Positions 35,570-54,661 of a stretch of 64,000 nucleotides of DNA are shown here, one piece after another. The first letter of the stretch is position 1. Every line of letters starts with the position of its first letter. The position numbers were made by a program, and so were the translations under genes. The notes below the pieces were generated by a model. It was not told the DNA's origin and did not search any database. It saw only the letters and a program-made list of their open reading frames with translations. The stretch comes from Actinokineospora xionganensis (GTDB lineage: Bacteria > Actinomycetota > Actinomycetes > Mycobacteriales > Pseudonocardiaceae), in NCBI RefSeq assembly GCF_014323725.1, contig NZ_JABVED010000006.1, positions 1-64,000 of the forward strand, given 5' to 3'.

Positions 35570-35700
35570 GGGCCGATCCAAACAGGCACCCAGCCAAGCC
35601 CCGCCCGACCCAGACAGGCACCCCAGCCGGCCCCGCTTGCCCAAGCAGGCGCCCCAGCCAAGCCCCGCCGGCAAACCACCCGACAGGCGCCCCAACCAGC
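35570..35700. repeat. degenerate C-rich tandem repeat
   Basis: About four imperfect copies of a 25-35 nt unit such as ACAGGCGCCCCAGCCAAGCC. The pattern occupies nearly the whole gap between the DNA polymerase and hydroxy-acid oxidase stops. It shows a purine/pyrimidine strand bias (C-rich on +). No hairpin or coding sense seen. Confidence 0.55.
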
Positions 35701-51722: not shown

Positions 51723-52331
51723 GTGACGGACCGCCTGGTATGGATCGACTGCGAGATGACAGGGCTCGACCTCGGCAAAGACGCCCTGATCGAGATCGCC
51801 GCCCTGGTCACCGACTCCGAACTCAACGTCCTGGGCCCCGGGGTGGACCTCGTGATCCACACCGACGACGCCACCCTCGACGGCATGCCCGACGTAGTCC
51901 GCGAAATGCACGCGCGCTCCGGCCTCACCGAAGAAGTCCGGGCCAGCACCCTGACCCTCGCCGAAGCCGAACGGCAAGTCCTCGACTACGTCAAACAATG
52001 GGTCCCCGACATCCGCACCGCCCCCCTGTGCGGCAACTCGATCGCGACCGACCGCGGCTTCCTCGCCCGCGACATGCCCGAACTCGACAACCACCTGCAC
52101 TACCGGATGATCGACGTCTCCTCGATCAAAGAACTCTGCAGGCGCTGGTACCCAAGGATCTACTACGCGCAGCCCGACAAAGGCCTCGCCCACCGCGCCC
52201 TCGCCGACATCCAAGAGTCGATCCGCGAACTGCGCTACTACCGGGGAACCGCCTTCGTGGCCCAACCAGGACCCACGACCGAAGAGGCGAAAGCAGTCGC
52301 CGAATCAGTCATGCCGACCCCCAACACATAA
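51723..52331 (+). CDS. orn: oligoribonuclease
   Basis: 202 residues from GTG 51723. DEDDh exonuclease: [20 protein letters not shown] (DxE), [19 protein letters not shown] (Asp) and [18 protein letters not shown] (His and Asp). It degrades 2-5-nt RNA and pGpG and is usually essential in actinobacteria. A tRNA-His gene follows 64 nt later. Confidence 0.95.
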
Positions 52332-52395
52332 CCCATTTCAACCCCACCCAACCGACACGCTACGATGTTCCAGCACCGGGTGACCGGTGCACATG

Positions 52396-52471
52396 GTGGG
52401 TGTAGCTCAGCTGGTAGAGCACCTGGTTGTGGTCCAGGATGCCGCGGGTTCAAGTCCCGTCACTCACCCCA
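52396..52471 (+). tRNA. tRNA-His (anticodon GTG)
   Basis: Cloverleaf with acceptor GTGGGTG pairing with CACTCAC (one G-U), D-loop GTAGCTCAGCTGGTAGAGC, anticodon loop TTGTGGT giving GTG, T-loop GGGTTCAAGTCCC and encoded CCA at 52469-52471. A G lies at 52395, as expected for the extra G-1 of tRNA-His. Confidence 0.95.
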
Positions 52472-52476
52472 TTGGG

Positions 52477-52511
52477 CCCCCCTTGCCTGCGGAAAGCGCA
52501 GGCGAGGGGGG
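52477..52511 (+). terminator. tRNA-His terminator
   Basis: CCCCCCTTGCCTGCG (52477-52491) pairs with CGCAGGCGAGGGGGG (52497-52511), one G-U in 15, loop of 5 nt. It is followed by TTCGTCATTTGT. Confidence 0.8.
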
Positions 52512-52524
52512 TTCGTCATTTGTC

Positions 52525-52543
52525 CCGGGGGGCGACCCCCCGG
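52525..52543 (+). terminator. second GC hairpin ahead of the repeat array
   Basis: CCGGGGGG-CGA-CCCCCCGG, a perfect 8-bp stem. It lies 7 nt ahead of the first copy of the 92-bp repeat, so transcription from the tRNA side is doubly blocked before the array. Confidence 0.55.
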
Positions 52544-52550
52544 ACCCCCA

Positions 52551-53349
52551 CGGTGCGATCGGTGGCCACACCAGCCCTGTCCGATCAACGGGGCTCGCGC
52601 CGCGCACAACGGGTGTGTAACCGGTAGGCACGACGCCGCCCGCGGTGCGATCGGTGGCCACACCAGCCCTGTCCGATCAACGGGGCTCGCGCCGCGCGCA
52701 TCGGGTGTGTAACCGGTAGGCACGACGCCGCCCGCGGTGCGATCGGTGGCCACACCAGCCCTGTCCGATCAACGGGGCTCGCGCCGCGCGCATCGGGTGT
52801 GTAACCGGTAGGCACGACGCCGCCCGCGGTGCGATCGGTGGCCACACCAGCCCTGTCCGATCAACGGGGCTCGCGCCGCGCGCATCGGGTGTGTAACCGG
52901 TAGGCACGACGCCGCCCGCGGTGCGATCGGTGGCCACACCAGCCCTGTCCGATCAACGGGGCTCGCGCCGCGCGCATCGGGTGTGTAACCGGTAGGCACG
53001 ACGCCGCCCGCGGTGCGATCGGTGGCCACACCAGCCCTGTCCGATCAACGGGGCTCGCGCCGCGCGCATCGGGTGTGTAACCGGTAGGCACGACGCCGCC
53101 CGCGGTGCGATCGGTGGCCACACCAGCCCTGTCCGATCAACGGGGCTCGCGCCGCGCGCATCGGGTGTGTAACCGGTAGGCACGACGCCGCCCGCGGTGC
53201 GATCGGTGGCCACACCAGCCCTGTCCGATCAACGGGGCTCGCGCCGCGCGCATCGGGTGTGTAACCGGTAGGCACGACGCCGCCCGCGGTGCGATCGGTG
53301 GCCACACCAGCCCTGTCCGATCAACGGGGCTCGCGCCGCGCACAACGGG
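52551..53349. repeat. 92-bp tandem repeat, eight full copies plus one partial
   Basis: Copies start at 52551, 52643, 52735, 52827, 52919, 53011, 53103, 53195 and 53287. Each begins CGGTGCGATCGGTGGCCACA. Copies 2-8 look identical; copies 1 and 9 share a variant (CGCACAACGGG in place of CGCGCATCGGG), and copy 9 is cut off at about 63 nt. Each unit holds GATCGG and CCGATC spaced 18 nt apart, plus ACCGGT. The length is not a multiple of three, so the weak ORFs across it are shadows. No spacers exist, which excludes CRISPR. Confidence 0.95.
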
Positions 53350-53899
53350 ATGATCGCCAAACGCTGGTCGCCAACAGTGGGATCAGTGACTCTTCCCAGC
53401 CATGCTGGGCCAGGCAACCCCCACCCAGCGCACCCCGGACGGTCGCCGGGTCAGCTGCCCTCGCCCGCCAGGCCGGGCCAACAGAGCCACCCAGCCACCC
53501 CAGCTGGACCCGGTGCGATCAGTGACCCTCCCCAACCCTGCCTGCCGGCCCCACCCAACCGCCCGGGACATGCCATCAGAGCCGGTCACCCACGTTCCGA
53601 TCAGGCACCATCCCCGACGCAGGCCGGTTGGGTTGCTCTTGGCACTTGTCCCTGCAGTTCCCCCTGCACCCTCGTCACCCAAAGGGAGCCACCAGCCACC
53701 AAAGGTGCCGACCAAGCCCCGAAAAGCCCACTACCAGCCGAGCGAGTCACCGACGCGAACCCACTGGCCACAACTGGTAACCGGGAAATCGCTGTTGGTA
53801 ACTGGTGATTACCTCCTGTGGGTGTTCAACAGGGTCGACTTATACCTAGTTTCTCCTTGTTGCCGGGTCGAGGGACCGGCACGAAAGGAGAAGCACCTC
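53350..53899. other. 550-nt non-coding region between the repeat array and the protease gene
   Basis: C-rich sequence on the + strand with degenerate echoes of the array: GATCAGTGACTCTTCCCAGC near 53377, CGGTGCGATCAGTGACCCTC at 53511 and GTTCCGATCAGGCACCATCC near 53593. These share the GATC-centred block of the 92-bp unit. The last ~100 nt, with TGGTAAC copies near 53775 and 53796, should hold the promoter of the secreted protease. Open frames are of shadow composition. Confidence 0.55.
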
Positions 53900-54661
53900 A
53901 TGAAGGTTCGTTCCCTGCTAGTCGGACTCATGGCGGCCGCCGCGATGGTGGCCGGGTCCGGCGCCACGGCGTCCGCTGACGACGTCAGCCCGATGATCGT
54001 GGGTGGTGGCAACGCCACCCAGACCTACAGCTTCATGGTGTCCCTGCAGTCCACCAGCGGCGGCCACTTCTGCGGCGGCTCGCTGATCAAGGCCAACTGG
54101 GTCGTGACCGCCGCCCACTGCGTCTCGGGCAAATCCGCCAGCAGCATCCAGGCGCGCATCGGGACGACCAACCGCACCAGTGGCGGAAGCGTCGCCCGGG
54201 CGTCGCGCGTCATCATCCACCCGAGCTACCGGGGCCCGTACGATATCGCGCTGGTCCAGCTCAGCACCAGCGTCAGCCAGGCACCGGTGGCGATCGCCAG
54301 TGCGTCGGGCGCCGTCGGCACCCGCACCCGCATCATCGGGTGGGGTCAGACCTGCCCGATCCGGGGAGCCTGCGGCGCCCCGGTGACCCTGCAGCAGCTC
54401 GACACGTCGATCGTCGCCGACAACGAGTGCAGCGGGATCAGTGGATCCATCGAGATCTGCACCGACAACCCCAACAACAACTCGGGCGCCTGCTACGGCG
54501 ACTCAGGTGGTCCGCAGATCAAGGCCGTGAATGGCGTGTGGCAGCTCATCGGCGCCACCAGCCGCTCCGGTGGCGGATCGCAGTGCGCGGTGGCCCCGTC
54601 GATCTACACCGACGTCCCCGCGTTCCGCAGCTGGATCCAGCAGTACACCGGAGCCCTGTAG
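53900..54661 (+). CDS. secreted trypsin-like serine protease (S1)
   Basis: 253 residues from ATG 53900, with GAAAGGAG upstream. Signal peptide 1-~26 (LVGLMAAAAMVAGSGATASA), short propeptide, then the mature N-terminus IVGGGNATQTYSFMVSLQST. Catalytic triad: His in VVTAAHCVSG, Asp in PYDIALVQLS and Ser in CYGDSGGPQI; disulphide cysteines are in place. The specificity pocket position six residues before the Ser is Asn in NNNSGAC, so Arg/Lys preference is not assured. Extracellular, monocistronic, with a strong terminator. Confidence 0.95.
   Translation: MKVRSLLVGLMAAAAMVAGSGATASADDVSPMIVGGGNATQTYSFMVSLQSTSGGHFCGGSLIKANWVVTAAHCVSGKSASSIQARIGTTNRTSGGSVARASRVIIHPSYRGPYDIALVQLSTSVSQAPVAIASASGAVGTRTRIIGWGQTCPIRGACGAPVTLQQLDTSIVADNECSGISGSIEICTDNPNNNSGACYGDSGGPQIKAVNGVWQLIGATSRSGGGSQCAVAPSIYTDVPAFRSWIQQYTGAL

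Follow-up and report, generated by a model that had tools for sequence, protein, structure and literature searches.

The window analysed here is a stretch of 64,000 nucleotides from Actinokineospora xionganensis (contig NZ_JABVED010000006.1, positions 1 to 64,000), and it contains a tandem array behind a tRNA-His gene (Table 1). TRF reported the array at 52547-53349 with a period of 92, 8.7 copies, a match of 99% and a score of 1571, and the remaining seven TRF rows of the window scored 113 or less. Another small tandem repeat is found at 35573-35669 (3 x 32 bp, 77% match). The copy starts are spaced by 92 bp, beginning at 52551. The first-pass annotation had counted nine copies at this spacing; the spacing is correct, but the array consists of eight full 92-bp copies and a ninth that extends over 63 bp only. 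Copies 2-8 are the same in all letters and differ from copy 1 at two bases. Copy 9 matches copy 1 over its 63 bp and diverges from position 53350, in agreement with the annotated identity of the inner copies and the common variant of the outermost ones. Recent expansion by unequal crossing-over, as had been proposed, is compatible with the seven identical copies, which are most simply explained by late unequal crossing-over. Since the genome assembly is a 70-contig draft and short reads give an unreliable count of identical copies of 92 bp, the copy number may be wrong. The array was described as non-coding, and this holds: the small ORFs within it are repeats of the 92-bp unit, and we found no reason to count them as genes. 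A CRISPR array was rejected, as before, because there are no differing spacers and copies 2-8 are identical over 92 bp. The unit is non-palindromic, and the array indeed lies 3' of a terminator and a GC hairpin. The loop GCGGAAAGCGC of the first of these hairpins recurs at many sister sites.

Table 1. Positions of the array, its proposed parts and related loci
Feature	Position	Strand	Basis
tRNA-His (GTG)	52396..52471	+	ARAGORN; Rfam RF00005
First hairpin of tRNA-His transcript, intrinsic-terminator-like, loop GCGGAAAGCGC	52474..52511	+	sequence, by eye
Second GC hairpin CCGGGGGG-CGA-CCCCCCGG, left arm (B) of proposed attB	52525..52543	+	sequence; compensatory pair changes over 88 sites
Conserved core GACCCCCACGGTGCG	52543..52557	+	core matches; junctions of two elements
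Proposed crossover CA	52549-52550	+	junctions of two elements
Eight 92-bp units, each proposed as B' arm, body (~64 bp) and P-arm-like tail (28 bp)	52549..53284	+	
First P-arm-like tail GTGTGTAACCGGTAGGCACGACGCCGCC	52613..52640	+	sequence
Further GTGTGTAACCGGTAGGCACGACGCCGCC tails	starts at 52705, 52797, 52889, 52981, 53073, 53165, 53257	+	
Truncated ninth copy, with B' arm and body but no P tail	53285..53349	+	
Unit family in the window genome besides tRNA-His	tRNA-Ala(CGC), tRNA-Glu, tRNA-Leu(CAG), 5S rRNA end, tmRNA, two RNA-like loci		
Class A candidate RNAs: L009 (C30), L172, L179, L192, L203, L210, L216, L232, L242	~100-200 bp upstream of core		
Class B candidate RNAs: L014 (C67), L175, L197, L209, L214, L227, L244, L315	upstream of core		
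Class C loci: L189, L202, L246, L282	upstream of core		

The arrays that we read begin at a common module, which consists of a GC hairpin followed by GACCCCCACGGTGCG or a near variant and lies ~74 nt behind an RNA gene. The exceptions are two unit sets, one at 685 kb of G001 and one on contig 38 of G009, that are both split from their hairpin. The exact core occurs in 94/297 genomes of the family and in 16/16 genomes of the genus, with 4-15 exact matches per genus genome, while the reversed core used as a control gave one match overall across the family genomes. The core is also present behind the tRNA-His gene of some other Pseudonocardiaceae. When we fetched 80 core sites from 11 genus genomes (a set that stands apart from the window genome and G009, G012, G014 and G015), tRNA or tmRNA was located upstream of the core at 58 sites, and the core followed at 73-79 nt in 53 of these, with a range of 61-89. 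Seventeen of the other 22 sites belong to three RNA-like classes assigned by eye (A, 8; B, 6; C, 3), one has a tRNA-like 3' end, three have a protein gene or are unclear, and one was fetched without its upstream side. Rfam at gathering scores gave no match in 20 of those non-tRNA loci. The window genome carries the module at nine loci, eight of them with the exact core, and 50 of its 57 tRNA predictions have no core inside 300 nt.

Because the core was the search bait, its conservation among the sites found with it is uninformative. When four genomes were searched for the hairpin pattern without the core, the core or a near variant came next in 28 of 29 matches, and the 29th match is the attL site of the G001 element described below. 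Across 88 sites, the hairpin showed compensatory changes from U-A to C-G in 18 cells of one pair, and from G-C to C-G in 22 cells and to U-A in one cell of another pair; these 41 cells compare with 12.1 in shuffles and were reached by 0/500 shuffles. On the same 88 sites, neither the number of pairs with compensatory change nor the number of pair types was above the shuffles, and RNAalifold chose a different pairing, of the first G run with the second C run, in which no pair covaried. The hairpin and core, which are kept in 13 genus genomes without the integrase, might also serve the host as a back-up terminator. Behind tRNA-Thr/Met at L154, a module-like GC hairpin GGGGGCGGAGCCCCC without the core is followed by a second similar hairpin. 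At L291, L297, L283 and L184, the core and its terminator module are directly preceded by tRNA-like 3' ends; ARAGORN called no whole tRNA for these ends, and they are perhaps split or partial tRNA genes.

The RNA-like classes were also inspected by themselves. In class A, the terminator module is preceded by a conserved, RNA-like sequence that contains a strong hairpin (GGCCGCCCGGCATCGAGCGCACCGACATGCCGGGCGGCC and variants); class B shares the module and has a conserved hairpin of its own (CGGCCCGCTCCCAGTGACCCCCAGGCTGGTTGAGCGGGCCG and variants). Class A gave no Rfam match at gathering in its nine loci, nor did class B in its scanned loci (all listed except L315), and we regard both as candidate small RNAs. 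Class C contains two hairpins with C-rich loops that resemble 6C RNA by eye only; it had no Rfam match at gathering, and L189, L202 and L246 had no 6C match even at E<=1. The follow-up of class C with Rfam at E<=1 over six loci gave two chance-level matches, to other families. These findings highlight candidate small RNAs that have a common terminator module and, where scanned, no Rfam family.

Besides tRNA-His, the unit family was found at seven places in the window genome; the 5S rRNA end was identified by eye, and the two RNA-like loci had no Rfam match. TRF gave 8.3 x 89 bp behind tRNA-Ala, 8.2 x 92 bp behind tRNA-Glu, 3.4 x 94 bp behind tRNA-Leu and 2.8 x 89 bp on contig 30. The first-pass annotation had suggested looking for the unit in related genomes, and a sequence-only model of 31 units matched 14/16 genus genomes, with 37 matches in the window genome and 39 in G009, partial ones included. 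The GATCGG-N18-CCGATC dyad that it had pointed out is present in the window unit but is missing in all six sister loci checked; the dyad is thus not conserved, and its reading as a protein-binding dyad was rejected. A conserved RNA fold of the unit was rejected as well, since folding z-scores ranged from -1.63 to +1.71 in seven units and RNAalifold found 0 covarying pairs.

The units group by genome or close group of genomes and not by RNA gene. Their mean identity reached 0.764 when different loci of one genome were compared (86 array pairs), against 0.612 for arrays that lie behind the same RNA but come from different genomes (19 pairs). In a tree of 33 units, those of G013 stood apart and those of G005, G008 and G009 were intermixed, with weak inner forks (16/30). 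We compared 38 arrays, hand-picked from unit-model matches and earlier sites, at a cut-off of 95%. Three of them, G005 Ser(TGA), G008 Ser and the G001 array beside the element, yielded no unit; the window-genome tmRNA and Asp sites and the G009 class B site, where no full unit was read, were left out, and further unit-model matches lie outside this set, for example in G009, G012 and G015. Whole units are shared between loci. In the window genome, the first unit of the Leu array is the same as the Ala unit, and the second the same as unit 1 of the Glu array; in G009, units 1-2 are common, in order, to the Gly array and to the element-side units at Ser(TGA); and further sharing was observed in G005, G008, G013 and G015. 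Likeness to the units of other arrays was higher for the unit nearest to the hairpin (0.922, n=21) than for later units (0.856, n=61), with p=0.014 on data that are non-independent owing to copies inside one array. When we examined insertion next to the hairpin by comparing the last B' flank and the first unit for their likeness to unit-less orthologs, the result was a tie, with 11 loci each and 1 equal, or 39 vs 33 of 77 pairs, in a count that takes as unit-less G009 tRNA-Lys and G001 tmRNA, which both hold units, and G002 sites with other repeats.

Tandem repeats of other kinds are also frequent at the module. A TRF score of at least 80 was obtained inside 500 bp at 5/9 sites of the window genome and at 30/77 sites of other species, compared with 0/48 tRNAs without the module and 4/274 other 500-bp windows as controls. 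Among the other species' repeats behind the core (period >=28, score >=80), the unit contains the core ACGGTGCG in only 2/22, so that amplification in other species needs no att hybrid. One example is an array of 9.1 x 64 bp in G002; at L173, L179, L181 and L182 of this genome, arrays of 64-65 and 106 bp lie behind the module with units that lack the core. Since repeats of several materials occur at the module, this is a point against any single cause.

In two relatives, G001 and G009, an element of ~10 kb that encodes a large serine integrase is inserted exactly at GACCCCCA^CGGTGCG. Both hairpin-less unit sets border on the start codon of a gene for a large serine recombinase; the G001 and G009 integrases are 77% identical and have the Pfam Resolvase and Recombinase domains. 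The hairpins missing from the array side were found ~10 kb away, at the other ends of the elements. In G001 (L315), a class B RNA, a terminator and the hairpin up to GACCCCCA are followed by an inverted unit tail, and in G009 (L317), behind tRNA-Ser(TGA), hairpin-GACCCCCA is likewise followed by an inverted unit tail. The junctions are near 685,631/695,708 in G001 and 7,776/17,387 in G009. The window genome represents an empty site for the G001 element, at a class B locus and not at tRNA-His: the array-side flank matches at 92.6% over 2,850 bp, including an alanine-dehydrogenase-like protein that is 97% identical, the RNA-side flank matches at 95.2% over 1,773 bp, and the element interior has no match in the window genome. 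The RNA-side flank of the G009 element matches the tRNA-Ser(TGA) loci of G005 (85.9% over 814 bp) and G008 (91.0% over 711 bp), and its array-side flank matches these relatives only via repeats. The features that mark a serine-integrase site are thus present, namely a junction exactly at the site in two elements, an empty site in a relative and an adjacent integrase gene in both G001 and G009. The domain scan covered 10 ORFs of both elements in total and found a PF01580 (FtsK-type) protein in G009, while the integrase and four other ORFs scanned in G001 included no FtsK/TraB-type match. The G009 element encodes an Imm1-domain (immunity) protein besides the FtsK-type one (L338:716-1411 and L299:6220-8997).

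The distribution of the integrase was then compared with that of the sites. The window genome has no homolog of the G001/G009 integrase at E<=1e-3, and 13/16 genus genomes have none at E<=1e-60 and all have the core. Among 30 integrase loci, only the two closest (100 and 77%) have the P tail and the core beside the gene. At the other 28, where flanks of up to 1.5 kb were examined, there was no P tail (<=4 mismatches in 21) and 8 had isolated core-like or short P-like matches only; the integrases of these 28 loci are at most 63% identical, apart from one with 80% over a 158-residue fragment. The G010 homolog (59%) sits in a different site. A phage origin of the close integrase was rejected, as 299 phage records match it, all below 60% identity, and the ten listed are at 27-31%.

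We read the attachment sites from the junctions as hairpin-GACCCC-CA-CGGTGCG for attB, hairpin-GACCCC-CA-GGCGACACGCCCATTGGTTACACAC for attL and GTATGTAACCAATAGGCATGTCGCC-CA-CGGTGCG for attR, and these assignments are well supported by the sequences. The attP site has two inverted arms, which are alike at 24/28 positions in G001 and 20/28 in G009, and the unit tail GTGTAACCAATAGGCATGTCGCC corresponds to such an arm. The unit tail at tRNA-Ala of the window genome matches both G001 P arms at 25/28, and the unit tails of G008, G009 and G013 match the G001 arms at 22-25/28 and the G009 arms at 19-24/28. The unit tail is similar to all four P arms of the two elements; the two arms on the hairpin side are inverted. 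At tRNA-His, the 28-mer that starts 3 bases before the P-arm-like tail matches both G001 arms at 21/28 and the G009 arms at 19/28 and 18/28, whereas one G001 P arm matches at most 18/28 elsewhere in the window; judged by the 21/28 to the G001 arms, the P arms of the window are decayed. Based on the element junctions and the likeness between unit tail and attP arm, the hairpin with the core would be an attB site, and the unit boundary an attR-like hybrid of P and B'. We therefore propose from these alignments the anatomy B-(B'P)n-B' for the array, in which each unit begins with a B' arm and its flank and ends in a P arm. The ninth copy in the window has no P arm, as this anatomy demands. The boundary of window units 2-9 reads CG, where attB has CA.

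Taken together, the arrays are probably relics of serine-integrase traffic that were later amplified and spread. This reading draws on the two insertions at the core, the empty site, the likeness of the unit tail to attP arms and the sharing of units, all visible in the sequences. The hairpin and core behind the tRNA would serve as the chromosomal attB for the large serine integrase of ~10-kb integrative elements, with the crossover at CA within GACCCC-CA-CGGTGCG, so that the boundary P-CA-B' would be the attR-like hybrid. Integration and loss at the tRNA-His site would have left one B'-P fusion, which was afterwards multiplied, and ordinary unequal crossing-over or slippage would have been the last step in the window, giving the seven identical copies. 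Units would also move between RNA loci, whole or in blocks, and become alike inside one genome, either through integrase-driven, cassette-like transfer or through gene conversion and unequal crossing-over. Catalysis of recombination at the sites is an inference, and so are the way in which the first fusion came about and the route by which the units would move. To our knowledge, no canonical serine-integrase reaction gives a B'-P fusion in one step. Counting against the relic reading are the absence of the integrase from the window genome, the decayed P arms, the CG boundaries and the limitation to two elements, of which that of G009 has an array-side flank matched only via repeats. The tie in the ortholog comparison also counts against it, since insertion next to the hairpin should make the last B' flank more like unit-less orthologs than the first unit is, and so does the presence of the core in only 2/22 repeat units of other species.

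The sharing of units also raises the possibility, somewhat doubtful in our view, that the large serine integrase operates the arrays as a system of cassettes. If a resident element has a single attL and several attR sites, it could excise at a downstream attR and take units with it, and integration elsewhere followed by excision at the nearest attR would leave the units at a new RNA locus. Cassettes of 74-94 bp would hop in this way between RNA terminators, entering at the hairpin end. If true, this would explain the sharing of whole units and of ordered blocks (G009 Gly/Ser(TGA)) as well as the likeness within a genome.

Other explanations dispense with the integrase as the source of the units. 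The arrays might be a neutral satellite, in which a slippage-prone stretch next to the hairpin expands and is homogenised by RecA-dependent gene conversion, and the likeness to att would stem from capture of a host repeat end by the element. The enrichment of repeats at the module over both controls, the absence of the core from 20/22 repeats of other species and the identity of copies 2-8 speak for such a satellite, but it is rather unlikely, given that the unit tail is like all four P arms, including the two inverted ones on the hairpin side, and that the shared units are whole units. We consider it rather unlikely, too, that the host device came first, with hairpin, core and units forming a transcription-end device that an element later used as att. 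Such a device could be a back-up terminator or an insulator behind stable RNA genes, and the units would be extra stops or protein sites. It would fit the core in all genus genomes, including the 13 without the integrase, and in about a third of the family genomes, the near-fixed distance behind RNA genes and the compensatory changes of the hairpin. It accounts well for the hairpin and core but leaves unexplained the attP arm at the unit end and the sharing of whole units; moreover, the units lack a conserved fold, most tRNA predictions of the window genome lack the core nearby, and RNAalifold preferred another pairing without covariation.

Tandem repeats behind a tRNA gene are known from E. 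coli tyrT (Rfam family rtT), and the position and strand of the array behind the tRNA would suit a repeated small RNA or RNA sponge made from the tRNA-His promoter. This is very improbable, because two hairpins precede the array, the unit has no conserved fold, and Rfam on 52300-54000 returned the tRNA and one chance match (E 0.79); in this region the rtT model was not matched. REP/BIME sequences with RAYT are also dispersed repeats near transcript ends. That the arrays are of this type and were moved by a RAYT (Y1) transposase has almost no chance of being right, and we rejected it: PF01797 had 0 matches in the draft window genome while 5/14 control genomes were positive, the unit is non-palindromic and the anatomy is different. 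The comparison thus supports none of the three possibilities that the first-pass annotation had listed, a protein-binding array, a repeated small RNA or a replication site. The case that it had named as contrary evidence, a known insertion-sequence end, came near the mark, although the element is of the serine-integrase type and not an insertion sequence.

We then compared the arrays with known systems. As in large serine integrase systems and AICEs, the recombinase gene lies beside att, attP has inverted arms and the element is ~10 kb; among the ORFs scanned, the G009 element also has an FtsK-type protein. AICEs have a serine or tyrosine integrase, and both elements carry one, which is a statement about the elements and not about the window array. 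Unlike in those systems, the site here is located within a terminator-linked hairpin, ~74 nt downstream of stable RNA genes, and there are 4-15 exact core matches per genus genome. Ghinet et al. (PMC3218068) call serine-recombinase integration into tRNA genes rare, although in one group of 8 from Mycobacterium the target is a tRNA-Leu gene; serine integrases occur in 19/144 of their AICEs. AICE/CIME accretion, as outlined in PMC9513070, involves successive elements with common att sites at one RNA locus, with remnants left. The present loci would be similar in their successive elements, common att sites and remnants at one RNA locus, but the repeated unit here is only ~74-94 bp and no gene was seen in it. 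Integron cassette arrays consist of head-to-tail units bounded by recombination sites and common to several arrays. Our arrays share this order and the sharing across arrays; they differ in the recombinase class and in units without genes, and capture would be hypothetical. A literature search, mostly outside subscription journals, gave no paper that we recognised as describing these arrays.

The relic reading offers an origin for an otherwise orphan tandem array, which would be built from recombinase half-sites. It also implies that each of the 16 genus genomes examined has a likely attB at several places, which genetic tools could readily use as a landing pad provided that the integrase is functional. 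We suggest that these loci provide a testable case in which mobile elements may turn the terminators of RNA genes into growing arrays that become alike within a genome.
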